Shown here: in pieces, positions 16,911-55,776 of the stretch
Layout of the letters: the number at the start of each line of letters is the position of its first letter
Position numbering within the stretch: position 1 is the first letter of the stretch
IMG/VR virus record: IMGVR_UViG_3300043426_000266
Span: 141,064 to 205,063 of that record
Length of the DNA: 64,000 nt
DNA from: a virus
Reading direction: 5' to 3' (one strand)
Notes under the pieces: generated by a model
What the model was told of the DNA's origin: nothing
Databases searched by the model: none
What the model saw: the letters and a program-made list of their open reading frames with translations, nothing else
Position numbers and translations under genes: made by a program

Positions 16911-16969
16911 GTGAACGAGACTAATTAATGTCTTTTCATTAACAATTGTTATCAAGCAAGGATATATCC

Positions 16970-18835
16970 ATGACAAGTTTAAAAATCGGTAATCAAAATC
17001 AAGAAACAACTCAAAACCAAACTAACGATCGCGGTCATGGTGGCGACCGCCGTGAGTCTCGTCGTGAGTCTCGCCGCAAAAATGCAGACGACACGTTCGT
17101 AAGTTTAGTAGAATTGCTTCGCCCAGAAGCAGCTGGCAAAGCAATGCAACCCCGTGCTGAAAATGCACTTAAATGGGTGCAAGCTTCACTTGCTCGTGAT
17201 CCTGAAATTATTAAAGGCCATGAAGTTCGCATCACTTCAATTTCTCGTGAAAAAGGATACCCAGTTAAATATCCTGGTATCGTCATCACTTTGTTTAACC
17301 CATCAACAAATCGTATCGCTTCACATACCTTGATGTTAGAAGATGGCGAAACATTACAACCATTAGAAAACCGTACTTTCCGCGGCGAAAATATTACCCC
17401 AGAACCAGTACCTTCAATGGTGTGGGATTCTGAATACCAACAAGCGGTTCGCACAGAAGTGTACGAGCTTTATAAAGACGTGGCTGATGTGAAATATGCA
17501 TCAATGGGTGTGACTGTAGTTCCACACACACTGTCTATCCCAATTATCACTGAACATACCAGTCAAGACATTAACCCGTTAGATGCGCAGTTTGTTGCAA
17601 TTGTAGAAAGCTTGTCAAGTTTCTACAAATGGTTAGGTCGTGATGCAAGTCGTGTTAAACTAGGTGAAGCATTCAACCCTGACCGTGAACAGCTGGTTGC
17701 AAACGTTGACCAAGCACCAACCATTGAGTTTGATCAAATGGGTCAACCACGTCGTTCAGACTTCTGTATTTCGTTGTCTGTGAAAAAGCGCCGTGATGAA
17801 AAACGCGACGTTGGTCCGCTGTCTTATAACCGCGATGACCAAGTTGATTCCGGTACTATTCTTCGTGTATCAGGTTATTGCTTGCCTTACTACACTCAAC
17901 CAAACCTCGATGATAAAAAACCACGTAACTTCGGTATCAATATCATCGTAACTGCAATTGAAGGTAAATCAACACCGTCGTTAGAATTGTTCCTTTACGG
18001 TATGGCTTCAACAACTGTATTGACCAACAACGACATGTGGGCGGATGGTTTCAAACCAGCATTGATCGTTGCAGACCCAATGCGTAACCTTGGTGGCCTG
18101 TTCCTTGAGATCCCTGATCAAAATGGTGAATCAATGCCGCGTCGTGACTACGCTGCGAGTTCATCTAATGAATTCTTAGATGACGTAGATTTCTTGTTCA
18201 GCTCTGATGTTACTGTGTCGTTAGATTGTTCTGAATCTGGTGCGACTGCCTGGATTACAGATTTGTTCTTGAACAACGATCTTGACGCAATTGAAGAAGC
18301 TGCTGACAACTTGACCAACGAAGAATATAGCGCCATCGTGAACAACGATGTGAATGATGCAATTGTTCGTAGTGATACTCGTCGTTTCTATACTGGTGAA
18401 TACAGCGGTGCACATTCTGTACGTGATATTCGTGATGTTGATTATTTATATCTTATCAACAAATTCGATGAAAACGGTTCCGCAGAAGCTGCAAAAGACT
18501 GGGATGAATCTTTGGGTGATGATAGCGAGTATGGTTTACACCAACGTGCGGTATTGACTCAAGAAGCACTTGGTCACGGCACTTATCGTATCACTGGTGT
18601 GGTTGACCGTGTGAAACTTGATGCTTCATTCTTTGAAGCAGTTGTGAATGCGTTACATAACACTGACATGCTTCCTAACACCAATGATATTTCTCGTGGC
18701 TTCCGTCCTAAACAGCGTCTTGAAGCGAAAAATGTTAAAGGTCGTATGGACAGCCAAGAGCTTGGTTCAAACTATCGCACCAACCATAGTCGCCAGGTTA
18801 ATCGTCAACGTAATGCATTTCGTGATCGCGGTTAA
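16970..18835 (+). CDS. chmA: Probable chimallin, phage-nucleus shell protein
   Basis: Chimallin self-assembles into the single-layer protein shell that encloses replicating jumbo-phage DNA. Three points support the call. The length, 621 residues from the ATG at 16970 (AAGGA eight bases upstream), is close to the ~630 of known chimallins. Charged low-complexity tails flank a folded core: a Gln/Asn/Arg-rich N-terminus (about 8-32, with repeated RRES) and a basic C-terminus (NRQRNAFRDRG). The next gene encodes an RNA polymerase beta' N-terminal part, matching the phiKZ gp54-gp55 order. The strongly biased codon use (CGT, GGT), own promoter and UUCG terminator suit a very abundant protein. I cannot align it to a reference here; another abundant structural protein remains possible. 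Confidence 0.7.
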   Translation: MTSLKIGNQNQETTQNQTNDRGHGGDRRESRRESRRKNADDTFVSLVELLRPEAAGKAMQPRAENALKWVQASLARDPEIIKGHEVRITSISREKGYPVKYPGIVITLFNPSTNRIASHTLMLEDGETLQPLENRTFRGENITPEPVPSMVWDSEYQQAVRTEVYELYKDVADVKYASMGVTVVPHTLSIPIITEHTSQDINPLDAQFVAIVESLSSFYKWLGRDASRVKLGEAFNPDREQLVANVDQAPTIEFDQMGQPRRSDFCISLSVKKRRDEKRDVGPLSYNRDDQVDSGTILRVSGYCLPYYTQPNLDDKKPRNFGINIIVTAIEGKSTPSLELFLYGMASTTVLTNNDMWADGFKPALIVADPMRNLGGLFLEIPDQNGESMPRRDYAASSSNEFLDDVDFLFSSDVTVSLDCSESGATAWITDLFLNNDLDAIEEAADNLTNEEYSAIVNNDVNDAIVRSDTRRFYTGEYSGAHSVRDIRDVDYLYLINKFDENGSAEAAKDWDESLGDDSEYGLHQRAVLTQEALGHGTYRITGVVDRVKLDASFFEAVVNALHNTDMLPNTNDISRGFRPKQRLEAKNVKGRMDSQELGSNYRTNHSRQVNRQRNAFRDRG

Positions 18836-18898: not shown

Positions 18899-20320
18899 AT
18901 GCAAGGTGGAATAACCTGGGGCGAGTTTAACAATATCGTTGGTGATATTGTTAATTTAGATGAGGTCTTTGAGGAGGAAAAAGCGAGAAAGCCAATAACC
19001 TTTGTAAATGATATTAAAGTGAAAACTGATGGTGATGCATTAAGTCTACGAGACAAACTCACAATCAAATACACGGATGACATCATTGATTTGTTGCAAG
19101 GGTCAAATCCAATTGAGCAACCCGTGGAAATCGATTACTGGATCCGTACACCAGATTCAGTTGATTGGTTTATGACACCTATCATTCGAATTATGCTCGA
19201 AGATAAAACGCGGTTTAGAGATAAAAACTCTAATACCTACATTTCAACACTCAGTTACTTTTGTGATCCAACATACCGATTACCAGTAGGTTATGTTCCT
19301 GATAAACGATTTAAACGTTTATTAGACGAAGGGATTCCACGTGGTATAAATGAATTTTATCATCATTTCGATACCTTTATTGATATTTGGTTTGGAATTA
19401 AAACAAAACGGGGTGGCTACACCAAGTTCTCGGAACCCGTTTATGATTTAATTCAAAAGTATCGTGATCGGGTTTTTATCAAACATCTGCCCATGTATAC
19501 TAGACACGCGTTTGTGATTGAGTCAAGTGAGAATTATGAATCTATGGATAAGTCCGTAGTCTATCTTGCTTTAGACGCAGTCTTTACAATCACATCATTG
19601 GATATGGAAATTAAGGAGTTAAGTCCTAAGAAGTTACAAGCAAAGGCGTGGAAAGTCAATACGTTAATGTGTGAATCTGTAGAAGCTTATTTAAGACATA
19701 TCTTTTTAAAGAAAGAAGGTTTGTTACGAAAAAGTAACTGCGGAACAACCGCGTCGTTTAACACCCGTTGTGTAATCGCTTCCAATCAGGAACGTAACCA
19801 CAAATACGAATCTATCAAACTCCCTTGGGGTGTAGCGATGGTTTTGTTTGCACAAGAGATCGGCGGTATTCTTGTACGCGAACACGGATGGACTGCAAAC
19901 CAAGTTTTCCATATGCGTGCTTTATTCGCTAAAAAGTTTGATCCCTTCATTTATCAATTATTAATGAAGTTTTTAAAAGATCATCCTGATGGCGGAAAGT
20001 GGGGTATCTTACATCGCCCGCCAACTCTTGAGCGTGGTTCTCATCAGACCGTGCTTGCTGACGACATTAACACTGATCCTCGAATCTTAGTTATTTTCAT
20101 GAGTAACTTGATTACAAAAGCATTTAATGCGGACTTCGACGGTGATGAGCTCTGCTGGACTGTTCTGCATGACCGTAGAATGGAGACGTTGTTTGAAGGA
20201 CTTAGACCGCATTATGGTGCGATGGATTTAAATACCCCTTTGACTTTCAGTAGTAATCTGGGTATACCAAAAGCACATGCGGTTAAACTGGAGAGATTTT
20301 TAAATCGACACAGAGGATAA
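18899..20320 (+). CDS. RNA polymerase beta' N-terminal part (catalytic NADFDGD), probable non-virion RNAP
   Basis: The absolutely conserved magnesium-binding motif NADFDGD is at residues 410-416 (Asp412, 414, 416). A preceding LHRPPTLERGSHQ corresponds to the LNRAPTLHRLGIQ segment of bacterial beta'. The protein ends about 57 residues after the motif, so it carries only the N-terminal half of beta'; the trigger-loop half is a separate gene (32686 or 37987). Its place right after the chimallin candidate matches phiKZ gp55, a non-virion RNAP subunit. I chose the ATG at 18899 with AAGGA upstream; a TTG at 18881 is in frame but lacks a site. The next gene follows after two bases. Confidence 0.9.
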   Translation: MQGGITWGEFNNIVGDIVNLDEVFEEEKARKPITFVNDIKVKTDGDALSLRDKLTIKYTDDIIDLLQGSNPIEQPVEIDYWIRTPDSVDWFMTPIIRIMLEDKTRFRDKNSNTYISTLSYFCDPTYRLPVGYVPDKRFKRLLDEGIPRGINEFYHHFDTFIDIWFGIKTKRGGYTKFSEPVYDLIQKYRDRVFIKHLPMYTRHAFVIESSENYESMDKSVVYLALDAVFTITSLDMEIKELSPKKLQAKAWKVNTLMCESVEAYLRHIFLKKEGLLRKSNCGTTASFNTRCVIASNQERNHKYESIKLPWGVAMVLFAQEIGGILVREHGWTANQVFHMRALFAKKFDPFIYQLLMKFLKDHPDGGKWGILHRPPTLERGSHQTVLADDINTDPRILVIFMSNLITKAFNADFDGDELCWTVLHDRRMETLFEGLRPHYGAMDLNTPLTFSSNLGIPKAHAVKLERFLNRHRG

Positions 20321-37986: not shown

Positions 37987-39267
37987 TTACGTCAAATGAA
38001 TTTTAGGATTGAATTCAGCAATTTTAAATGAACGACCATGCATTGCTTTCATGGCGTTGTTCATGATAATGGATCCAGGAAGAGAGGTTTCGATATGCAC
38101 CATTTCTCTTGAAGTAAAGAAGAAAGTATCTGTGCAGTGACCACAGAAGTTCGGTGGCTTCGTTTTACATCTCGCTGGAGTTCGTACGGTAATCGTTTTA
38201 TTGATTAATGATTTTGCCAACTCCGGAGTAATCTCGTTGGTTTTACCTGACACAGGATCAACGGTATATCGACCATAATAACGCTTCATATTATCTTGAG
38301 TCAATAAAACATTTACACCAGTCTTTACCCCACAGTCATCTTCTGAAATCTTTGAGTTCATGAAGATACGATATAGATAGTTTACTAGTTCACCGCCCTG
38401 CGCGGTTAAATGTCCACGAGAGTATGACGCTGCGCGAGTTGTATCGGCATTCGCTGGGATATTTTTAACGTCCATCCCGTCAGATAGTGGTTTGGTAATG
38501 ATCGCGGGTTTACCCCCGCCGAGACCATCGTCTAACCCGTACATTACGTGTGCTTTTTTTCTAGAATTTTCAAAAGACTTATCTGAAACAAAGAAGTCCT
38601 CCGCAACATCCCCCTTGAAAGAGTTCTTATCCATTGCAACAAGTTCTTTTTCAATTTCAGCAATCACCACGGTATTATCAAGTTCCGCTGCGTGCTTCTT
38701 CAACAACTCATCCCGACGGATTTCTACTGATTTATCAATAGACATTGTTTTGGCAGAACCAGTTGGAGTCGACACTGCCCATAACCCATTGAGCATGTTT
38801 AGACATTCACACCAGTAGTAGAATTCTGCAGCAGTGATTCTTTTCTCTTTAATGAACTGCTCAACAACTGAATTAATATCAGATGGTTTAAGTTTTTTGT
38901 TTAGATAAGGAGCTTTATCCCCAAATGCAGCAATAAGACAAATTAAATTACCTAGGATTGTTCCACCCGTACTCATTGTTACTTCGTGGATGTTTGGTAA
39001 ATCCCCAGGGTTTAAAGTATAAGTGGTTTTATAATCAATAATACTTTCTAATGGTTTAACTCCGTCTATCTTTTCAAACGCATTTGTTTCGGAGTTCCAA
39101 AACATGTGCTGGCCAGTATCACGGTCAATGGCGATATCAAAACCAATCCAGTCACGTATCTCATCACTGAAGGGGTGGGTAGCAACAGTAAAGACGCACA
39201 GCAACCAACGGGTCTCTTTATATCGATTTGCTTTCACACCACCTAAGAAAAAATTAAAACGATCCAT
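37987..39267 (-). CDS. Second RNA polymerase beta' C-terminal part, probable virion RNAP
   Basis: A second, divergent beta' C-terminal fragment. KPLSDGMDVKNIPANADTTR matches the segment before the bridge helix; RAASYSRGHLTAQGGELVNY corresponds to the bridge helix and T-A-N-S-G-Y-L-T-R-R. KISEDDCGVKTGV matches V-T-E-D-D-C-G-T. FCGHCTDTFF is the C-A-H-C-Y-G site, and IIMNNAMKAMHGRSF the trigger-loop start. The protein stops at the trigger loop, about 30 residues after the zinc-like site. It lies on the opposite strand from the non-virion genes, and position and size recall phiKZ gp80, a virion RNAP subunit. AGGAGA precedes the ATG. It overlaps its upstream neighbour by 14 bases. Confidence 0.88.
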   Translation of the reverse strand: MDRFNFFLGGVKANRYKETRWLLCVFTVATHPFSDEIRDWIGFDIAIDRDTGQHMFWNSETNAFEKIDGVKPLESIIDYKTTYTLNPGDLPNIHEVTMSTGGTILGNLICLIAAFGDKAPYLNKKLKPSDINSVVEQFIKEKRITAAEFYYWCECLNMLNGLWAVSTPTGSAKTMSIDKSVEIRRDELLKKHAAELDNTVVIAEIEKELVAMDKNSFKGDVAEDFFVSDKSFENSRKKAHVMYGLDDGLGGGKPAIITKPLSDGMDVKNIPANADTTRAASYSRGHLTAQGGELVNYLYRIFMNSKISEDDCGVKTGVNVLLTQDNMKRYYGRYTVDPVSGKTNEITPELAKSLINKTITVRTPARCKTKPPNFCGHCTDTFFFTSREMVHIETSLPGSIIMNNAMKAMHGRSFKIAEFNPKIHLT

Positions 39268-40111
39268 TAATCTTCTCCTGGATACAGATGTTATTAATTT
39301 GATAACTTAATTCTGCTAAATACATTGGGTCTTCGCCGTATAGGTCTTTAGCAAGTGAATTCACTTTTGTTTTTAAATCTTTCCATTCAGTTTTACCAAT
39401 CAAAGCAATTTCAACCAACTTCCAAGCAACCCGGTTCTTAGTTGTTCCTGATTTTAATGATTTTAACATATCTCTAAAGTTGGACATGATAACAATATCA
39501 CTAATTGGTAAATTTAATTCATCGTTATAAACAAAGTGTTTAACAGTGTTAATTTGTTTAAGACCCCAAATTCTAAACAACAGTTCTTTTTTACGACTAT
39601 CAATTTCTGGAACTGTAATCAAACCTTCTGATTGCATTACACGCATCGGACTAAAATGGATATTGTAAATACGTTCGATAAACTCGGTGGGGATACGTTC
39701 AACAATATCTTCGAATTGAATTAAGTCGGCGTAACAAACTTTTTCTATTAGGTCTAAAAAACCGTCTAAAGGTGTTTCAGCATTATCTAAAAGTTCAGTA
39801 ATTAAAACATGTTCATCCGATTCTTCAATCACTGATAAATAGCTTAACAACGCATTTGAGGTTGCAATGTTATCGCAGTTGATTTGAATACCAAGTTCTT
39901 CAAAAATTAACTTCTGATATTGGCGAATGTGACCGTAGCATGTTTGAATAACTTCAAACGTGTCATTGTTTTCTAACAACATCCCTAGCTCATTTAAGTT
40001 AAGTTCAATATCCACCATTCCAAAATTTTGAATCGTGTGAATTGAATCATTAATTAAAGCCTGTTGTTCTACCGTGCACGTATCAGTTAAGAATTGTTGG
40101 ATAATGTCCAT
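39254..40111 (-). CDS. Unknown phage protein, 285 aa
   Basis: First gene of the three-gene minus operon that contains the second beta' C-terminal subunit, with GAGG before the ATG at 40111. Acidic and wholly helical in appearance, no motif recognised. Overlap with the RNAP gene by 14 bases implies coupled translation and perhaps physical association, but that is inference. Confidence 0.75.
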   Translation of the reverse strand: MDIIQQFLTDTCTVEQQALINDSIHTIQNFGMVDIELNLNELGMLLENNDTFEVIQTCYGHIRQYQKLIFEELGIQINCDNIATSNALLSYLSVIEESDEHVLITELLDNAETPLDGFLDLIEKVCYADLIQFEDIVERIPTEFIERIYNIHFSPMRVMQSEGLITVPEIDSRKKELLFRIWGLKQINTVKHFVYNDELNLPISDIVIMSNFRDMLKSLKSGTTKNRVAWKLVEIALIGKTEWKDLKTKVNSLAKDLYGEDPMYLAELSYQINNICIQEKINGSF

Positions 40112-40148: not shown

Positions 40149-40721
40149 ATGAACATAAACGTTGGAAATTACAAAATGCAATGTCTTGAAAAACTGCACC
40201 TACTCGATGGAAAACCATTTGAAGTTGTTCGTCAAGAAGCAATTGATGAATATAACAATACGGGCGGTAAACCATTATCGGAAACGGATAAAGAAAACCT
40301 GCGCAAAAGTTACATTAAACAAAAGAAAACCAAAACGGATTATCGGCTCTACCCACTCTATCAATCGATTAAAGAAATTGAGCTGCATTGTACCCCCACC
40401 ATGAGCGAGTTACTTGTTCAGGATGAAGATGGTGCTTGGACTCAAACAGAGGTATATACACTTCTAGCGAGTTTAAAACCTGAAAATGCTGAGTTGCTTA
40501 AACAAATGGAAGTTCTTTGGATTCCATCTGTTGGTAAAGCAGACCAGCTCAAACGAACTTGGATTAAAGAAAAAGTTATTCAAACTCGATTCTCTCGCCG
40601 AGGACAGGAGTTTGTCGAAAAGCTTCAAGCGTTGGTTGATGATTTATTTTCACTCTCAACTTTATGTATCAATGTGCAACTACTACTCAACGATTTAACA
40701 AAGGAAGTAACTGATGTCTAA
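40149..40721 (+). CDS. Unknown phage protein, 190 aa
   Basis: Divergent from the RNAP minus operon, across a 37-base gap. No Shine-Dalgarno is seen before the ATG at 40149, nor before the next in-frame ATG at 40176, so the start is uncertain and the message may be nearly leaderless. The protein is helical and charged. Its 3' end overlaps the next gene by eight bases. No family recognised. Confidence 0.65.
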   Translation: MNINVGNYKMQCLEKLHLLDGKPFEVVRQEAIDEYNNTGGKPLSETDKENLRKSYIKQKKTKTDYRLYPLYQSIKEIELHCTPTMSELLVQDEDGAWTQTEVYTLLASLKPENAELLKQMEVLWIPSVGKADQLKRTWIKEKVIQTRFSRRGQEFVEKLQALVDDLFSLSTLCINVQLLLNDLTKEVTDV

Positions 40722-43017
40722 TCTTTCAATTATTATTTCCCCATTGGCGGATGCTGAAAAAGTAAAAACCGAATTGCAAGAACTGTTAGTTGGTAAATCA
40801 GTAGTGATCTCTGATGACCCATTTGCAATTGGTGATGTCGTCATTACTCAATATTTCTCTGACTTGTCAAAACATTTATCGGGTCATGTTTTAGATACAC
40901 TCCTAGAGCGTAAAGATTTATTGGTACAAACACACACCCAGGTAAGTGTAGGTGAACATATTGGTTCGTTGATGAATGATGAGAACTCAGACACAGCAGC
41001 AATATCTAGAATTTCAACCAATGCGTTTTCAGCAATTGCGTTTGCAAATCAAATTGCAAAACTAAATGAAAAGTTTATTATCACAACATCAGTTGATCAT
41101 AGTTTTGGTGAAGAGATGGCATTTTCTGATTGGTTGAACCGCCAACCGCAAGTTCAAGAGACTGTGACCACAGAAGTTAAGATTGAGCCAGAGGCGCCTG
41201 CTGCTGAAGTTGCTACTTCTGCAGAAACAGTCGTACCTGCGGTAGTGGAAACAGATCCAGTCCCTGTTGACGATAAGACTGAAATCGCCGGTGATGGTCT
41301 TGGATCAACCGATACCGCCCCTGTGGTTGATGAAGCGTTTTTAGACCCACTTTCAAATGTGATCAGCGCAACGACTGACCCCCAACCAATTGTCTTGGAA
41401 GAAATTTCCGTCAATGAGGTCTCTGAAACTGATACTTCAACTGCTGTAGAGGAAGCTGCTCCTCTGGTCGAACTAAACTCTGATATGGATTCCTTTGATC
41501 CGTTAGCACAAGCATTCGCAACTTCTTCTCAATTAGCAAACGAGGAGGAACCCAAACCAGAGCCTGATTTAGATGCGTCAATTTACATCGGTCGTTTACC
41601 AGACTATCCAAAAGTCGAAACAACAGTTGAAATTTTAAAACACCCATTGGTGAAAAAAGCTAAAGACGAACCATCAAGTGAAGCAATGTTTTACGACTGG
41701 GGTGGTGACGTGGATTCGCTTACATCTGAGTTAGAAAGACTTGATCGAATGTCTGAGGAAGCAACTCAACGTAAACGTCGCCCCAACTTCACAGAACAAG
41801 ACATGCAGACGCTGGCATGTATGAGTGATCGAATTGGGTCTAGAGACATAATGAACCGAATGTTTACACCCCAGTCTAAATGGTCACAAGCGCTTCGCAC
41901 AGAGACAAAAGCAATTCCGCTACTCACTGTAGTTAAAAACCCAAACTATGGCGATCAGCGCTATGTGGGTACTGATGCAGTACCGTTGCTTGCTAACCGT
42001 ATGAAAATTGGTGTAACAATTGGTGTAATGCTACCACATACTGGTATTTACGTTTTAATTGTTTCACCAGGAGATGATGAAGTATTAAACACGCTGTCCA
42101 TCATCAATGCACAACGTGTTGAAACCCTACGCTCTTCTTCTGGGATCTTATTAGGTAATAGTAATTACTATCTAAATAAACAAATCATTGACTTGTTCTT
42201 AAATAGCGTAACAGATTGTTCTTTAACCGCACATAATCGTGAAATGCTGCAAAAGCTAATTGATGATCGTGATGTTGATATTATCGCTGCTGCGCTGTAT
42301 GCATCTATCTATCCAGATGGCTACGACTATACACAGGTTTGCGGGTTAGAACTTGCCAATCATCCAGGTAAAATTTGCCCGGGTAGTCAAGAGTTTGTTG
42401 CTGATTTAAAACGTATGGTGTTTGTAGACAATTCACGTTTAAATGAATATCAACGTAACATCGCAACAGCTGGATTAACCAAACGTTCAGTTAAAGAAAT
42501 TGAAGACTATCAAAGTCAACATTATCTTGGTTGGGAAAAACCATACGAGATTACTGAAGGTGTTCAATTCATTTATAAACCAGTGTCTTCTTTGGTTGCA
42601 ATTGAAGCAGGTGAAAAATGGATTAGTGAAATCTCTAGCGTCGTTGACCGTTTGATTGCGTTTAAACAAGATGAAACTGAACGGAATGTGATGATCAACC
42701 AACGAATCGATATTACGCGTATTCGTGAGTTTAGTCATTGGGTATCTGAGATTCATGTTGACGGGTTGATTCTTAAAGACCGTGATAAAATTGATCAGTT
42801 GTTAAATAAACTGAGTCGTAATCCAGAGGTTGTGAACAAAGTAGGTGAAACCCTATCCGAGTTCCAACGTTTATCTGTTATTGCAATGGTGGCTATTCCA
42901 CGCGTGGAATGTCCGACTTGTTCTCAGACTGATCAGAAGGATTTAGATATTAGCCCTTATTTAATTCCACAAGATGCAGTCTCTCGTTTTTTTACCCTCG
43001 CCCACCAAAGATTCTAA
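40714..43017 (+). CDS. Probable tail/baseplate assembly protein, 767 aa (short form)
   Basis: Residues 1 to about 150 are folded. A low-complexity Glu/Val/Thr/Pro-rich linker spans about 150-290. A folded C-terminal region follows, containing Cys-rich sites (VCGLELANHPGKICPG near 548-563; VECPTCSQT near 730) that could bind zinc. The later region (MKIGVTIGVMLPHTGIYVLIVSPGDDEVL and the CPTC site) reminds me of T4-type baseplate-hub assembly chaperones, but the match is weak. The reading frame ends 22 bases after seven consecutive T (42987-42993) where the -1 frame continues open for 172 codons; see the extension feature. Confidence 0.65.
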   Translation: MSNLSIIISPLADAEKVKTELQELLVGKSVVISDDPFAIGDVVITQYFSDLSKHLSGHVLDTLLERKDLLVQTHTQVSVGEHIGSLMNDENSDTAAISRISTNAFSAIAFANQIAKLNEKFIITTSVDHSFGEEMAFSDWLNRQPQVQETVTTEVKIEPEAPAAEVATSAETVVPAVVETDPVPVDDKTEIAGDGLGSTDTAPVVDEAFLDPLSNVISATTDPQPIVLEEISVNEVSETDTSTAVEEAAPLVELNSDMDSFDPLAQAFATSSQLANEEEPKPEPDLDASIYIGRLPDYPKVETTVEILKHPLVKKAKDEPSSEAMFYDWGGDVDSLTSELERLDRMSEEATQRKRRPNFTEQDMQTLACMSDRIGSRDIMNRMFTPQSKWSQALRTETKAIPLLTVVKNPNYGDQRYVGTDAVPLLANRMKIGVTIGVMLPHTGIYVLIVSPGDDEVLNTLSIINAQRVETLRSSSGILLGNSNYYLNKQIIDLFLNSVTDCSLTAHNREMLQKLIDDRDVDIIAAALYASIYPDGYDYTQVCGLELANHPGKICPGSQEFVADLKRMVFVDNSRLNEYQRNIATAGLTKRSVKEIEDYQSQHYLGWEKPYEITEGVQFIYKPVSSLVAIEAGEKWISEISSVVDRLIAFKQDETERNVMINQRIDITRIREFSHWVSEIHVDGLILKDRDKIDQLLNKLSRNPEVVNKVGETLSEFQRLSVIAMVAIPRVECPTCSQTDQKDLDISPYLIPQDAVSRFFTLAHQRF
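42987..42993 (+). promoter_or_regulatory. Candidate -1 ribosomal slippery site TTTTTTT
   Basis: Zero-frame codons around it are CGT TTT TTT ACC, giving the pattern X-XXY-YYZ with all T. The zero-frame stop is at 43015. A GAAGAGTTC / GAACTCTTC hairpin starts 32 bases downstream, further than the usual 5-9, so its role in stimulating the slip is doubtful. Confidence 0.5.
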
Positions 43018-43511
43018 TTGGTAACGAAGAGTTCAATCGAACTCTTCCGCCTGATGGCCAGCATGTTTTACATATCGAGTATGGTACGAGTGAGCCTGAA
43101 GTTATTCCTCGTATCATGGTCGCTGCTGATGAGTTTAGGTTAGGGCTTGGTGTAAGTACAATTAATGGTTTCGAACGAGCAGCGATAAGACAGGATGTCT
43201 ATGATCAAGTGTTTTTAAAGGAATCCGATCACCCTTATTCAACGATTCGCATGAGTAATAAAGAGCGGTATTCTTCAACCCATTTGTGGTATAGTCGTAT
43301 GGCAGAGTTTATGCTTTATAACGCCGCTGAGAAAACGGGGTTATCATTCGTAGAGTTTGTTAAAATGCCAACATGGTTTGTTGAAAATACACTCTCGACA
43401 CTTAGACAACAAAGTAAAGACACGAGACAGGGCGCTGCAAGTCTTCAAAAAGACATTGAGAAGATGGGTGATGCTGCTGTTGAAAACTTTTCCAACATGA
43501 AAAAACGGTAG
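42993..43511 (+). CDS. C-terminal extension reached by candidate -1 frameshift (172 codons)
   Basis: This frame has no ATG until 43116 and no ribosome site there, yet the translation upstream of that ATG reads like real protein (RPPKILIGNEEFNRTL; GQHVLHIEYGTSEPEVIP). It begins exactly where the upstream gene runs through T-TTT-TTT at 42987-42993, a perfect -1 slippery heptamer. A -1 slip would give a 932-residue fusion. The extension ends in a helical section (SRMAEFMLYNAAEKTG; SFVEFVKMPTWFVENTL) of the kind seen in tail-assembly chaperones. Alternatives are a separate gene with a non-ATG start, or a homopolymer length error in the assembly. A perfect 9-bp hairpin lies at 43026-43047. Confidence 0.6.
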   Translation, partial: YPRPPKILIGNEEFNRTLPPDGQHVLHIEYGTSEPEVIPRIMVAADEFRLGLGVSTINGFERAAIRQDVYDQVFLKESDHPYSTIRMSNKERYSSTHLWYSRMAEFMLYNAAEKTGLSFVEFVKMPTWFVENTLSTLRQQSKDTRQGAASLQKDIEKMGDAAVENFSNMKKR

Positions 43512-43532
43512 GGTAATTACCCTACCGTTTTA
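43502..43532 (+). terminator. Terminator overlapping a stop codon
   Basis: Perfect palindrome AAACGGTAGGGTAATTACCCTACCGTTT, followed by TA. The TAG stop of the frameshift extension (43509-43511) lies inside the left arm. Confidence 0.8.
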
Positions 43533-43565: not shown

Positions 43566-43617
43566 AGCTATCTGAATATATTGCAAGCCTGAAAAATAAT
43601 AGTCTATCGCATAAATA

Positions 43618-43641
43618 AAGAAGGGGCAATTGCCCCTTCTT
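43618..43641. terminator. Palindromic hairpin with GGGGCAATTGCCCC core
   Basis: AAGAAGGGGCAATTGCCCCTTCTT, perfectly self-complementary. Shares its core with the terminators at 30084 and 43931. On the plus strand only a short T run follows. Confidence 0.75.
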
Positions 43642-43662
43642 TAAGTATATTTAGTTAACGCA

Positions 43663-43930: not shown

Positions 43931-43957
43931 AAAGGGGCAATTGCCCCTTCTACTTTT
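43931..43957 (-). terminator. Terminator of the DNA polymerase N-terminal gene
   Basis: AAGGGGCAATTGCCCCTT hairpin, followed on the minus strand by a T-rich run (TATTTTTTC). It lies just downstream of the stop of the minus gene that ends at 43961. Confidence 0.8.
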
Positions 43958-43960
43958 TTG

Positions 43961-45691
43961 TCAATTAACGGTTATTTCCTGATACATCTTAGCGGGTAGT
44001 TTGTGCGCGGCAGCAAAGTCTTTATGAAGATCTTGTAATGTTTTTAATTTGTACAAGTCTCGACACGTCGTAATTGCATTTGCATACCCCCCGGTCAGAT
44101 TCACACAAACATAACGGTGTTGGAATGAATCAATCCCTTGTATCTTACATATCTCAAATACCGTGTTTCTTCGACACAACCCCAGCAAGATACCGATCTT
44201 AGGATAAGCTGATATCAAATCCAGGTCGTAGTTATGAATCGTTGTTCTAGATTTTAAGAACGTTTTATCATCTTTAACTAATTGGATTCCTATATCTTCA
44301 AGATGAGTCGCCTCTAGAATATTAATCCAAAGTTCCTTACCAATAACCATCTTGTCAATCTCTTCCTTCATTCGATCAGAAGTTGTAGACATAACCTGGT
44401 CATTCTCTAGGCAGAAAGTATGCAAGGCATCACATAGTTTTCTAGGGTTAGAGTTAAAGTCTTTAATTTGAGAATTACCCAACAACAAAGGTAACTTGGT
44501 GCTGATGTCTTTAAACTTCTCATCGAACTCCTCTACGCGAATACAGTCAATCAAACCATAAGCACAGTATTCCTTTTTAAAGTGTTTCTGCATCACCATG
44601 TGCCATCTCCCAGTACCCGTAGGGATGCCTTTTAATAACTCATGTTCTACGTGATATTTACCTTGACCCAGATACTTCGTTGTTAAGTAGTCTAATGAAT
44701 AAGAAGGCTCTGCTTTCATTTTACGAAGACCGCGAAATAAGGAAGCAGGGTCAATAAAGTAAAATGGTGAAGTGGAATATACTGTATGCCATTGTTCCGA
44801 TACTGCCAGGGGTCTAGAAGTACCATCATCTTTACGTTTCACTAATGGTCCTCGTTTGAATTCAAAATGTTTGAATTCAGGAGGAACAGAGGAATGAGAG
44901 AAAATGTCTTTAGGATCAACATTAGCATCCCTGAGGATATCTAATATTACACTCATATCGTAGTTGATGTTCCAAAAACCAATAACGTCAGGCATCCATT
45001 CATTGGCTTTCTCGTACATCTTTTTAATTCCATCAACCATATTGTTAACGAAATCTAATTCTAGTTTAATCTTTCTATCTTTTATTTCTGGCAACTCATC
45101 TTCAATAAACTTACGATATTCTTCAGCAGTGTCTCCAGGATTAACCCACTTGTTTAAAACAACCTGATAAGCTTTGTCTTTAAAACTCATGCTAAAGATA
45201 ATCATCCCAAGATTACCATTCATGTCAAATTCAGTATCTTGAACCGCGACAGTTAAACGGCTACGGGTACTGCGTTTGAATTTCTTTTCGTATTGAAGCT
45301 TAACAACAGAGTTAATGTCAATATCACAACCGTATACAAACGGGCTACGAAAGCACTCTGCTAATCGCATTTGCGGGGTGTAGGGTTTACTAAGTTTGTA
45401 CTGGACTTGACGAATCAGGTCACGTTGAGTTGTTTTGTAATTGATTAAGTTCTGTAGGTATTCTGTCTCTAATTTGTATTGATGTTTTTGATGCGCTTTT
45501 TTTGTAATCCAAAAATCACGTTTAACGTTCTCATGGAACACATACTCAGGGGTACACCCGTCAGTACCATCTGCGTTTTTAACAAAACGATTACGTTTAA
45601 CAAATACAGCGTCCCCCTCATGGGATTTATTATTAATTGCGTAGCATGAATGAATATATTCAAATTCAGGATTATTAACATCGGTACTCAT
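43961..45691 (-). CDS. DNA polymerase family B, N-terminal half (exonuclease and motif A)
   Basis: The 3'-5' exonuclease motifs are all present: Exo I QDTEFDMNG (Asp152, Glu154), Exo II NINYDM (Asp245) and Exo III YGLIDCIRVEEF (Asp382). Polymerase motif A follows as DLISAYPKIG (Asp491), matching D-x-x-S-L-Y-P-S-I. The protein ends at residue 576, 85 residues after motif A, with no motif B or C; those are in the gene at 13525-15681, about 28 kb away on the other strand. The start at 45691 follows GGAGG by eight bases; an in-frame TTG at 45706 lacks a site. It is the only gene in its transcription unit. Confidence 0.9.
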   Translation of the reverse strand: MSTDVNNPEFEYIHSCYAINNKSHEGDAVFVKRNRFVKNADGTDGCTPEYVFHENVKRDFWITKKAHQKHQYKLETEYLQNLINYKTTQRDLIRQVQYKLSKPYTPQMRLAECFRSPFVYGCDIDINSVVKLQYEKKFKRSTRSRLTVAVQDTEFDMNGNLGMIIFSMSFKDKAYQVVLNKWVNPGDTAEEYRKFIEDELPEIKDRKIKLELDFVNNMVDGIKKMYEKANEWMPDVIGFWNINYDMSVILDILRDANVDPKDIFSHSSVPPEFKHFEFKRGPLVKRKDDGTSRPLAVSEQWHTVYSTSPFYFIDPASLFRGLRKMKAEPSYSLDYLTTKYLGQGKYHVEHELLKGIPTGTGRWHMVMQKHFKKEYCAYGLIDCIRVEEFDEKFKDISTKLPLLLGNSQIKDFNSNPRKLCDALHTFCLENDQVMSTTSDRMKEEIDKMVIGKELWINILEATHLEDIGIQLVKDDKTFLKSRTTIHNYDLDLISAYPKIGILLGLCRRNTVFEICKIQGIDSFQHRYVCVNLTGGYANAITTCRDLYKLKTLQDLHKDFAAAHKLPAKMYQEITVN

Positions 45692-45748
45692 TTTTGTATC
45701 CTCCAACCTTCACATATACTCAAACCTCGTTTTATTAAAAATAAAAAT

Positions 45749-51648: not shown

Positions 51649-54586
51649 TTGATGCAGTTGAATGTTCAACGAATTCAATTCGAACTTCATCGGCAACAAT
51701 GAGTTCTAAATTCGATGTAACGTCTAAACGTTTTGGAACAGAGAAAGAGATTGAGTTATCTAACACCGTCGCAGTTTCAAATTCGTCTTTCAACCAACCG
51801 TTAACCTTGACACCGATCACCCATTCCCCCATTTCATTTTTCAACATTGAAATAATGTCTGATTTAGAAATGGTTAGATTTATTTCAAAGAACTTAACTA
51901 AAACCTCTGCGGTTCGTTTTCGAATGGCCTTGACAATAGATTCGTTAGATGAAATACGTTCATCAACAATATAAACAATATGAAGCTTCTGAGAAGCAGG
52001 CATGTAGATTTGTTCATTATTGTCAACAAGAATCTTAATATCCCCTTCGGTTGTTTTAGGGTGGAAGAAGACCGAGGTGCGCTCTAATAATTCATCAGCG
52101 TACTTATCAATCACATCTAACCAACCATCAATTTCGTTTTTAACTGACTCTCGGTAATCGAGCGTCGGTTGATGCGTTGCAAAGAAATATTTACCATCCA
52201 ACAACAACAAATCGTACTGTCTCATGAAACCCCGTTCACCCCCAATTGGAACCGGGTTTCCTTGCTCATCAACCACCGTATCCCCAGCCACATACTTGAT
52301 TCTTGGTAAATCGTTTGCATCAAGTTTAGGATCACCTTTTGCATGAAGAAGTGTGTAAACAATCTCACCATTTACCCAGGTGAATTCAGGAGATCCGAAG
52401 TTATCTAATTGATACTCGTTTTCCTCGTAAACCAATGGAACGTCAGCAGCATACTTTTGGAATCGGGTTTCATCAATTGAAGTCCGTGCTCGTCTCCATA
52501 GGTGTTTAAGTTCATTACCTAAAACAATTCTCACACGCTCATGAACAACAGCAAAATAGTTCGCTGAATTCATTAACGTATACCCGGGTAAACTTTCGAC
52601 ATCCAACATACTATCAATCTGAGTTCTTAAGTCCTCACCCAACCCTTCCTTATAAACTACGGTGAAGATGTCAGCAAAACCATCAAGTTTAAATGGAATG
52701 TTTCTTGGACCAATAAGAATTTCATCATTATCAGTAATCTCCCAGTCGGTTGGTAAACTGAAACGATAAATGTAGTTGTTGTCCACTGGTTTCTCTGTGT
52801 TAATATCAATTGGGGTAGTCAGCACGCCAGTGAACCAGTAGAAGTAACGATTGTTTTCATCAGAAATTCTAAGTTGAATAGAAAGATTATTCGTTGGCTC
52901 ATCTCTAAGTTCAGCAGAGGGTTGTATCTGAACATAAATAGAATAGCCAGAATAATTCGCATCAATTTGAATCTTGTACGAAATAATACTCGAAGAGAAA
53001 CCAATTGACGTGTTCTCGGTTTCAATACTTTTCGAAATGATTCTTGGACGATCTAAACGATATGGTTTAACACCATAAACGTCTTTAGAGATATCATGAA
53101 CCATAAAGTACGGACAGTAGAAGAAACGAGCATCATTCACCGTGTTAATGAGATCATCAATACCCGTTATGTTTCGATTTAAGAGATTTCTTAAACGTTG
53201 CTGGTCAACCAACCAGAGTTTACCATTAATAAGCTCATAAAGCGCATTAGGAAGCACTGTAACCTGGTTTGTATTATTTCTGGTAGAATCTGTATTTAAA
53301 ACTAATTCGTTCAGTGTGGTCGAATGAGGCATCATTAATGCGCCAATCGCAGAGGAGGCATTCATGTCAGGGGTTGCCAACTGTTTTGTTGCTAGGAAAA
53401 CCCGATCAGTAATATTATCTAACGCCAGTAACGTTGAGAACCCATCGTTTTGTAACTGAGTTTCAAGTTGGTTTGGTGTAATTGCAATTCCTTCAGTTAC
53501 ACTTGAACGATTGACTACTCGTTTACGCATCTGGTCAAATGTAGTTCCATTTGTACCACCAGTAATATAACCCTCTGACGCAATGATGTAATTTGTAAAA
53601 ACGTTCATCTGTGCAGAGAAACGCTCTTTCTCCAATACATCATGATCAACCCAGCTTGCTTTAAATAAGGTATTACTGATGTTAAAGATTGGAACGTTGA
53701 TTTCACCTTGAGTTGTATAGATATCAATTCGAATGTTATCTTTTAATAGATTGGTATTCTTGTATACTTGAGGGATTTCAATGTCAACTGTACCATTATT
53801 TACTTTAGCGATGACAGTTGGTGTACCATTATCAATCACGATCGGATTATGTCGAACGGACATTGGTTGCCAATCTTCATTGTCGTTCCGCATAAAGGCT
53901 CGAAGAAAGTAAAACTTATCCTTGAACTTTAAAGAACGTTTTAAACCCTGAGTACCAGTAACTGCGCTAACTGAAGAGCTTACCTCTAATTGAAGAATCG
54001 GGATTTCAAAAAAGAGATAAGTGATACTTCCTTGTTTACGGAACTCAAATTCAATATCTGGGGTACTGATATTTTGTAATGGGTTCTTCTTCGATAAATT
54101 GTATTTAACCGAAAGACCGCCTGCCTTAGTCACAGTAATGTCAATTGGATATAAAAGGGTTAATGGAATGTCTACAGGAGTAATCTGTGAGTTTCTAGAA
54201 ATGGTAAGTTTGCGATTCCCAGAACCATCATTCACACTCACCGCTCTTTGTTCAATTTCATCCAGTGCCAGCCAGAACATTATCTTAGCCGAGCCAGGTG
54301 ATGAGAAACGACCTAAATAGTCCTCATCACTCATATGGCGATATAGATCATCCCAGTTTGAAGAGTTCTCTGGATATAATCGAGTGAGTGTCGCTAAGGA
54401 TTTATCCAAACCATTACAATAAACCGCAACCATTGTTTCCATTGCATAAACGAAAGGGTTAGACGGGTCAACAATCTTTGATTCACCATTTGAAAGTGCT
54501 TCTAATGCCCGTAGGGATAAGGAAGCAATCGCAGCAGGGTTTCCTTGTAGCTGGTCAATCGCAGCTTTAAAATCAACATTTAACAT
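51644..54586 (-). CDS. Large virion structural (baseplate-like) protein, 980 aa
   Basis: The ATG at 54586 overlaps the stop of the upstream minus gene (TAATG); the open frame runs further back to 54637 but without a site. The protein is long, mostly beta in its middle part (many short alternating strands), with few cysteines and Asn/Asp/Thr-rich composition typical of baseplate or fibre-attached proteins. I see no enzymatic motif. Its partner gene at 54586-55755 is translationally coupled, and both lie on the opposite strand within the inner-head region. The baseplate assignment is inference from size and composition. Confidence 0.65.
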   Translation of the reverse strand: MLNVDFKAAIDQLQGNPAAIASLSLRALEALSNGESKIVDPSNPFVYAMETMVAVYCNGLDKSLATLTRLYPENSSNWDDLYRHMSDEDYLGRFSSPGSAKIMFWLALDEIEQRAVSVNDGSGNRKLTISRNSQITPVDIPLTLLYPIDITVTKAGGLSVKYNLSKKNPLQNISTPDIEFEFRKQGSITYLFFEIPILQLEVSSSVSAVTGTQGLKRSLKFKDKFYFLRAFMRNDNEDWQPMSVRHNPIVIDNGTPTVIAKVNNGTVDIEIPQVYKNTNLLKDNIRIDIYTTQGEINVPIFNISNTLFKASWVDHDVLEKERFSAQMNVFTNYIIASEGYITGGTNGTTFDQMRKRVVNRSSVTEGIAITPNQLETQLQNDGFSTLLALDNITDRVFLATKQLATPDMNASSAIGALMMPHSTTLNELVLNTDSTRNNTNQVTVLPNALYELINGKLWLVDQQRLRNLLNRNITGIDDLINTVNDARFFYCPYFMVHDISKDVYGVKPYRLDRPRIISKSIETENTSIGFSSSIISYKIQIDANYSGYSIYVQIQPSAELRDEPTNNLSIQLRISDENNRYFYWFTGVLTTPIDINTEKPVDNNYIYRFSLPTDWEITDNDEILIGPRNIPFKLDGFADIFTVVYKEGLGEDLRTQIDSMLDVESLPGYTLMNSANYFAVVHERVRIVLGNELKHLWRRARTSIDETRFQKYAADVPLVYEENEYQLDNFGSPEFTWVNGEIVYTLLHAKGDPKLDANDLPRIKYVAGDTVVDEQGNPVPIGGERGFMRQYDLLLLDGKYFFATHQPTLDYRESVKNEIDGWLDVIDKYADELLERTSVFFHPKTTEGDIKILVDNNEQIYMPASQKLHIVYIVDERISSNESIVKAIRKRTAEVLVKFFEINLTISKSDIISMLKNEMGEWVIGVKVNGWLKDEFETATVLDNSISFSVPKRLDVTSNLELIVADEVRIEFVEHSTASK

Positions 54587-55755
54587 TAGTAACCTCGAGC
54601 AATGAGTTCTTGATAAATCTCTGGAGCAATCCACCACTCCATATCCATGGTTTCAGGATTAATTCGTGGATAACCCATGTTGTCCATTGATGTGTATTTA
54701 GAAAAAGGAATTTTGATATAAACCGATTCCCGTTTACCCGAAACCATATTTGGATTAAACTGTTGAACCGTCTTATTAAACCACTCAATGATTCTTGGAT
54801 CGTAATAAACCGCTCCAAAACACGCAAAAGAAATACTTTGCATATTGGTATCGTCAACAAAAGGTTTATTCTCACTTTGGTTGAAACTCGCCCCTGTGTT
54901 TGTCGCAGTTGGGAAGGAAGCCCCCGTACAAAACATTTTTAATACCCGGGTGCGAGTAGGGTCTAAAACAAAACGATAAATACGAGTTTGATAATCAATT
55001 TCATTATCAATAATGGAATCAATGTATGGGTTAATATCCCCAAGATAAACCGAAGACATGTAATATAACCACAGATACAGCATTGTTCCTAATGGATCAC
55101 CATACATGTTTTTAAATGTAAAGTTTAAATCATATTTTCCGTACAAAGTGGATACATCATCGATCATCCCCCATTGTTCATGCATCACCCCCTCAGGTGA
55201 GGTGTATTGGTTCAAATCAGTATCTGGATAGCCGCTACTTGAGGCAACGTTGTTTCCAAGTATTGTTATGAATGGATTTAATGGATCGACTAGATCTGAT
55301 TTGTATATTGTTGGATTTAAACCTCTTAAAGTTGTTGCCGTTGGAGCAACTGGCGTACCCCCTGTATAGGGATCTAAAAAAGCACGAATAGCCCTCGCAA
55401 TTGAGCGGGGGTTATCATTTGCCAATAATGATAAAATATTCGCTAAAATGTTTTGATCACTTAAATTTAAACGCGGTCTTGTAAAAAATGTTAGACCAGT
55501 ACTCTCCTTTGCTGGAGGTAAAAGCCCTGGATTAGCAGAGCGTCTTGTTCCCCAAAAATTCGCGGTTACTGCTGAATCTAAAGGACCAAGACCAGAGACT
55601 GCGAGTAGATCATCTAAGTTTCCTAAATTCACAACAGTTTTAGCTAAATTAAGTCGCTCAATGTTCATACTAGATTTTGCTAGGGGTGTATTCTCTAATG
55701 TAAAATCTGCAAGCGCTTTCAACGGATTAAAAGACAATTCATTTGGATTAGTCAT
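54586..55755 (-). CDS. Virion structural protein, 389 aa
   Basis: I chose the ATG at 55755, six bases after AGG; an in-frame ATG at 55767 has no ribosome site. The gene overlaps the next by one base (TAATG). The protein contains loops rich in Gly, Pro, Asn and Ser and aromatic stretches such as FKNMYGDPLGTMLYLWLYYMSSVYLG that look like a structural shell or tail protein. It is divergent from the 55777 gene. No catalytic motif; the virion assignment rests on composition and neighbourhood. Confidence 0.65.
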   Translation of the reverse strand: MTNPNELSFNPLKALADFTLENTPLAKSSMNIERLNLAKTVVNLGNLDDLLAVSGLGPLDSAVTANFWGTRRSANPGLLPPAKESTGLTFFTRPRLNLSDQNILANILSLLANDNPRSIARAIRAFLDPYTGGTPVAPTATTLRGLNPTIYKSDLVDPLNPFITILGNNVASSSGYPDTDLNQYTSPEGVMHEQWGMIDDVSTLYGKYDLNFTFKNMYGDPLGTMLYLWLYYMSSVYLGDINPYIDSIIDNEIDYQTRIYRFVLDPTRTRVLKMFCTGASFPTATNTGASFNQSENKPFVDDTNMQSISFACFGAVYYDPRIIEWFNKTVQQFNPNMVSGKRESVYIKIPFSKYTSMDNMGYPRINPETMDMEWWIAPEIYQELIARGY

Positions 55756-55776
55756 TGAAAACCTCATGGTGGTAAT

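Follow-up and report, generated by a model that had tools for sequence, protein, structure and literature searches.

A conserved slip site in the gp77 gene of phiKZ-like giant phages is predicted to yield short and long assembly chaperones by -1 frameshifting

The homologue of phiKZ gp77 in the giant-phage DNA analysed here ends on a U_UUU_UUU site at which, with a probability that we put at roughly 87%, a -1 ribosomal slip gives rise to a short and a long form of a tail or baseplate-hub assembly chaperone. A programmed -1 frameshift, proposed for this gene in an earlier note, is strongly supported as the best reading for the gp77 family by sequence comparison: the site is conserved, the extension always lies in the -1 frame, a coding signal precedes its first start codon and no fused relative was found. 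Judging from sequence, the shift is real and family-wide and almost certainly ribosomal, and most likely the two predicted forms serve as assembly chaperones. The same slip point recurs in about 90 related viruses and in cyanophage relatives of T4, and it probably sets the ratio of short to long tail-assembly helpers.

Under the proposed mechanism, the two Phe-tRNAs on U_UUU_UUU (42987-42993) would slip back by one base and re-pair in the -1 frame in a fraction of the ribosomes, at what we infer to be modest efficiency. The majority product would be the short protein of 767 aa, and the minority long protein of 932 aa would consist of the 760 residues common to both plus a 172-aa domain. In this model, the core common to both forms may bind a partner from the hub or the tape measure, the added domain may bring in another tail component, and the short-to-long ratio would follow from the slip rate.

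The window, by which we mean the whole 64,000-nucleotide stretch that was analysed, forms the final 64 kb of an IMG/VR virus record of 205,063 bases. In it, C42985 and G42986 precede a run of T at 42987-42993, and the zero frame of the ORF at 40714-43017 (plus strand, 767 aa) reads across this run as CGT TTT TTT ACC, which makes T_TTT_TTT an in-phase heptamer of the X_XXY_YYZ type. This ORF, the source of the short product, is the PHIKZ077 homologue (phrog_4585, E=6e-68 over aa 365-766; tblastn) and ends at the TAA at 43015-43017, 21 nt 3' of the heptamer. The -1 frame runs from the TAC at 42993 to the stop at 43509-43511, an extension of 172 codons plus stop (42993-43511, plus strand; phrog_12109 E=1e-6, phrog_7580 E=2.6e-6), and the shifted product computed from the two frames comes to 760+172 = 932 aa. 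The zero-frame codons, the ORF coordinates, the 172 open codons and the 932-residue fusion given in the earlier note are all borne out by the sequence, as is its remark that the first ATG of the -1 frame (43116-43118, plus strand, 41 codons past the slip) has no Shine-Dalgarno-like motif. It is at this ATG that annotation programs would place the start of the extension; the nearest upstream stop in the -1 frame is 34 nt 5' of the Phe codons, and the interval holds no start codon. Near the ends of the 71 window ORFs of at least 100 aa, there are three in-phase heptamers with a -1 extension of more than 30 codons past the stop, and 42987-42993 is the sole T7 among them. Another candidate, TTTAAAT at 20299 (region 20299-20320), in phase shortly before the stop of an RNA polymerase subunit ORF and followed by a gene in the -1 frame, was set aside as probably due to chance, since the following gene has an ATG of its own 3 nt past the stop.

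Within the protein, alignments delimit a conserved core at aa 365-767 (41806-43014, plus strand), whose C-terminal half aligns with T4 gp26/gp51. A zinc-ribbon-like CPTC motif (42910-42921, plus strand), with CPEC as its counterpart in T4 gp26, lies 65 nt 5' of the slip. The N-terminal region of about 300 residues (40714-41800) is acidic, of low complexity and mostly unalignable with gp77 relatives. On the 3' side of the slip, 43004-43047 (plus strand) can form two hairpins, one of 5 bp at 43004-43022 and a perfect one of 9 bp at 43026-43047, with a fold z of -4.2, and these are a possible frameshift stimulator in the window. A search for conserved downstream RNA structure across the gp77 family found none (mean z -0.5), and we therefore claim no stimulator common to the family.

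Close relatives of the window were sought at the DNA level and with single proteins, and nothing came back. The relatives compared here were therefore found with the core protein and with alignments of subsets, as the full alignments were too divergent for scanning the collection. Searching with the core protein by tblastn gave 150 phage records, 25 of which were examined together with their gene neighbourhood, and three alignment-guided scans added 64 IMG/VR loci. In 24 of the 25 annotated phages, the ORF after gp77 lies in the -1 frame with respect to it, and this frame is open past the gp77 stop by 49-259 nt. The exception is RVTF4, which keeps A_TTT_TTT and has a -1 frame that breaks after 58 codons; its extension resumes in another frame past the break, possibly through a sequencing error. 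All 64 IMG/VR loci carry an extension homologue in the -1 frame by the extension profile, opening 48-513 nt before the gp77 stop. The comparison with relatives that had been suggested earlier thus placed the slip codons on one alignment column in 90/90 genomes, with a -1 extension overlapping the gp77 stop that has its full length in 89 of them and is truncated in RVTF4. A continuous gp77-extension frame was found in none of the genomes compared, and among the 89 relatives neither such a frame nor two separate proteins with their own starts turned up.

What the two products might do is suggested by remote homology to T4. T4 gp26 and gp51 are paralogues, both in PF12322 (baseplate hub assembly); gp26 ends in CPECGK...EFFELL, and gp51 is a gp26-like core with a C-terminal extension, that is, the equivalent of a long form. 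Comparison of the C-terminal half of gp77 with the gp26/gp51 superfamily, cyanophages included, gave an hhalign Prob of 92.8 and a score of 57.1, against at most 22.7 for decoys (80 column shuffles, reversed profiles and two neighbouring families), and the two profiles are co-linear up to the slip site, both ending there in CPxC...FF. A first profile comparison with close T4 relatives only had given Prob 16-37%, and the value of 92.8 was reached once cyanophage gp26 was added. The PF12322 profile matched none of the 25 gp77 members at E<=1, and gp77 is for this reason not filed as a member of that family. Given an alignment of the core that extends to the slip site, the gp77 core and its slip site likely share a common origin with the T4 gp26/gp51 type. 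For the extension, whose profile match to the gp51 C-terminus is not significant (Prob 13%), a common origin is no more than a possibility. There are differences as well: the gp77 core is larger, the short and long proteins of T4 come from two genes on opposite strands, and the end of T4 gene 26 reads G_TTC_TTT, without a T_TTT_TTY site.

Cyanophage-type relatives of T4 do have such a site. The gp26 genes of cyanophage DSL-LC02 and Aeromonas phage Ah1 close with GAT TTT TTC GCC/GAC TGA, and the -1 frame at this end encodes a gp51-type C-terminus. A scan added 79 usable loci, and all 81 cyanophage-type genes (17 representatives below 70% identity) have an in-phase slip site before the gp26 stop followed by a gp51 C-terminus in the -1 frame, the heptamer being T_TTT_TTC in 80 and T_TTT_TTT in one. 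These Kyanoviridae-type gp26 genes with a short 'gp51' differ from gp77 in that their extension has only about 60 aa and is a homologue of the gp51 C-terminus; its similarity to the phiKZ-type extension is not significant. A frameshift in gp26 would explain why, in a comparison of 26 T4-like phages, cyanophage gp51 had about 20% of the normal length, without the first ~200 residues, and why gp51 was missing in Aeh1 (PMC3037559). Since gp51 resembles a long form of gp26, T4 may have exchanged the frameshift for a gene duplication. On balance, we think it probable that phiKZ-type and T4-type phages descend from one ancestral U_UUU_UUY gene for short and long chaperones, which T4 instead duplicated into gp26 and gp51. 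Salmonella phage SJ2 (Ackermannviridae) presents a gp26 followed by a gp51-type extension in the -1 frame (...GYSIFEISESMPWHLDLL...), with a junction, GAA ATT TTC ATT TAA TTTTTG, that holds no standard heptamer.

A close known system is lambda G/GT, whose frameshift is shared by the long-tailed phages other than T4 and whose products, gpG and gpGT, are chaperones absent from virions (PMC5009743). As to presence in the virion, the 201phi2-1 record flags p138 and p139 as 'identified using mass spectrometry' and leaves p135-p137 without the flag. The likeness is one of architecture rather than sequence: both systems would pair a short protein with a rarer -1 long form that has the same N-terminal part, and in both the frameshift is widely conserved (PMC5009743). 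On the other hand, the gp77 core has 500-767 aa and the extension 150-180 aa, the slip occurs on U_UUU_UUY (in E. coli, A_AAA_AAG is a stronger site than U_UUU_UUU; PMC5009743), and no tape-measure gene adjoins gp77, which is why we do not file gp77 under the lambda G/GT family. Remote kinship with gp26/gp51, together with the slip site in cyanophage gp26, nevertheless suggests that gp77 may work like lambda G/GT. The tail-assembly chaperone put forward in the earlier note is supported only indirectly, by the remote homology of the C-terminal half to T4 gp26/gp51 and the identical architecture, and the missing adjacency to a tape-measure gene counts against it.

This missing adjacency bears on an alternative that we regard as unlikely but worth weighing, namely that the frameshift is real and its products serve another process, such as head, inner-body or virion-RNAP assembly. 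Judging from its gene content, the source virus is a chimallin-encoding, phiKZ-like, nucleus-forming giant phage (Chimalliviridae type), with a chimallin gene at 16946-18835 (PF25677 match above cut-off) and multi-subunit RNA polymerase genes (phrog_2962 and phrog_2987 matches) in the window. The chimallin gene, encoding the nuclear shell protein, is divergent and has a TTG start according to the ORF finder. Upstream of the gp77 homologue lie an RNA polymerase subunit gene (37987-39267, minus strand), a gp79 homologue (39254-40111, minus strand; phrog_5038 and BLAST) and a small ORF (40149-40721, plus strand) that overlaps the start of the gp77 homologue and was assigned to the gp78 position by position only. 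The order RNA polymerase subunit, gp79 homologue, small ORF, gp77 homologue, extension is that of PHIKZ080-079-078-077 in phiKZ. It was this proximity to RNA polymerase and gp79 genes that raised the possibility of another process, and the phiKZ record labels gp79 and gp80 as structural head proteins. The next gene downstream of the extension is a DNA polymerase on the opposite strand (43961-45706, phrog_3011), and a putative tail tube protein is encoded at 54586-55767 (PF23971, E 1.3e-89). Another process is made less likely by the kinship of the core with T4 gp26/gp51 and by the short/long arrangement common to both, so we retain tail or baseplate-hub assembly as the preferred role.

The spelling of the slip site bears on the choice between slippage of the ribosome and slippage of the polymerase. 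Across the 90 genomes, the heptamer is T_TTT_TTT in 40, T_TTT_TTC in 20, A_TTT_TTT in 10, G_TTT_TTT in 8, T_TTT_ATT in 7, T_TTT_TTG in 3, and A_TTT_TTC and T_TTT_TCC in one each; put differently, 19/90 have N_TTT_TTY with A or G first and 11/90 have other variants. Site statistics were computed on 48 representatives below 70% identity, a threshold that only approximates the independence assumed by the P values that follow. T precedes the Phe pair in 42/48 (13.2 expected from third-position use, P 4e-19), even though the residue encoded there varies over nine (V, T, L, A, I, G, Y, S and R), and the first Phe codon is TTT in 48/48 (18.7 expected, P 6e-24), including in genomes of 50-59% G+C. The excess of T and TTT therefore indicates selection on the nucleotides beyond the Phe-Phe protein sequence. 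A rival reading is that RNA polymerase slips on the T run and makes mRNAs with an extra U (or two fewer) that encode the fusion: the window has seven T, the protein product would be identical, and these genomes, in which RNA polymerase subunit genes are present, are transcribed by phage-encoded multi-subunit RNA polymerases. We nonetheless consider this quite improbable, because the T run is often of only five or six T and is not maximised, as in the 20/90 genomes with T_TTT_TTC (six T), the 8 with G_TTT_TTT and the one with A_TTT_TTC (five T), and because the cyanophage relatives use T_TTT_TTC in 80/81. Codons that preserve tandem re-pairing suit ribosomal slippage better.

Tandem Phe-tRNA slippage on U_UUU_UUY explains most of the genomes. 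Counting against tandem re-pairing are the 19 genomes with A or G before TTT, whose P site would have to accept a mismatch at the first base, and the poor A-site re-pairing of T_TTT_ATT and T_TTT_TCC. The altered A-site codon is found in 8/90 genomes, T_TTT_ATT in one marine lineage and T_TTT_TCC at one locus; for the T_TTT_ATT lineage, slippage in the P site alone might be all that is needed. In both the lineage and the locus, the -1 extension is intact although tandem re-pairing should fail.

The extension could also be a separate protein with a start codon of its own, coupled to termination of gp77, as the separate ORF annotated in public records and the overlap of the frames might suggest. 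This is very improbable given where the -1 frame begins to behave as coding sequence. Across 12 disjoint pairs of relatives, the region from the gp77 stop to the first -1-frame ATG, GTG or TTG has substitutions of 21/20/54 at codon positions 1/2/3 of the -1 frame, a coding-type pattern that agrees with the earlier claim of protein-coding sequence ahead of the first ATG. Conserved residues of this frame (YPxxPE...HV...FG) begin directly after the slip, and the first possible start comes a median of 35 codons past it, inside conserved sequence. No -1-frame start codon lies upstream of the slip in 41/48 representatives, and only 4/48 have a Shine-Dalgarno-like motif before the first start. We read this comparative pattern as a sign that ribosomes translate the -1 frame from the slip point onwards. 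As for the error in the T run that the earlier note held to be the main alternative, it can practically be discarded: T runs are error-prone, but the same frame layout recurs with different site spellings in 90 genomes, isolates and metagenomes alike, and no relative has one continuous frame, so that a homopolymer sequencing or assembly error splitting one gene is already refuted by comparison.

For a group of giant phages that includes phiKZ, these results would mean a conserved site of recoding and a protein product that had been missed, and they offer a mechanistic hypothesis for the widely conserved gp77 gene. In phiKZ-like records, each half stands as a hypothetical protein unrelated to the other; a joined CDS is marked in 0/25 records, and up to 85 extension codons are missed by present annotation. 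The PHROGs library likewise keeps the halves as unrelated genes, where we see one frameshifted gene: PHROGs 4585 and 8054 (core) and 12109, 7580, 13274 and 34704 (extension) contain these very proteins, as separate families of unknown function. All 25 aligned family members match phrog_12109, and both it and phrog_7580 were built from small proteins annotated separately. Pfam and NCBIfam searches of the gp77 proteins gave no informative match, a solved-structure search gave none, and no curated family names the gp77 protein. We found no annotation or open-access paper describing a frameshift in phiKZ-like phages, subscription journals and preprints having been outside the search. The cyanophage comparison, in turn, offers a possible reason for the lack in T4 of the tail-gene frameshift that long-tailed phages otherwise have (PMC5009743), and for the apparent shortening of cyanophage gp51 by some 200 residues (PMC3037559).

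Beyond the gene itself, a terminator-like palindrome lies at the end of the extension (43502-43531). Another terminator-like palindrome, AAGGGGCAATTGCCCCTT, occurs twice within 330 bases (43616-43643 and 43932-43949), both copies at the end of two converging gene sets.
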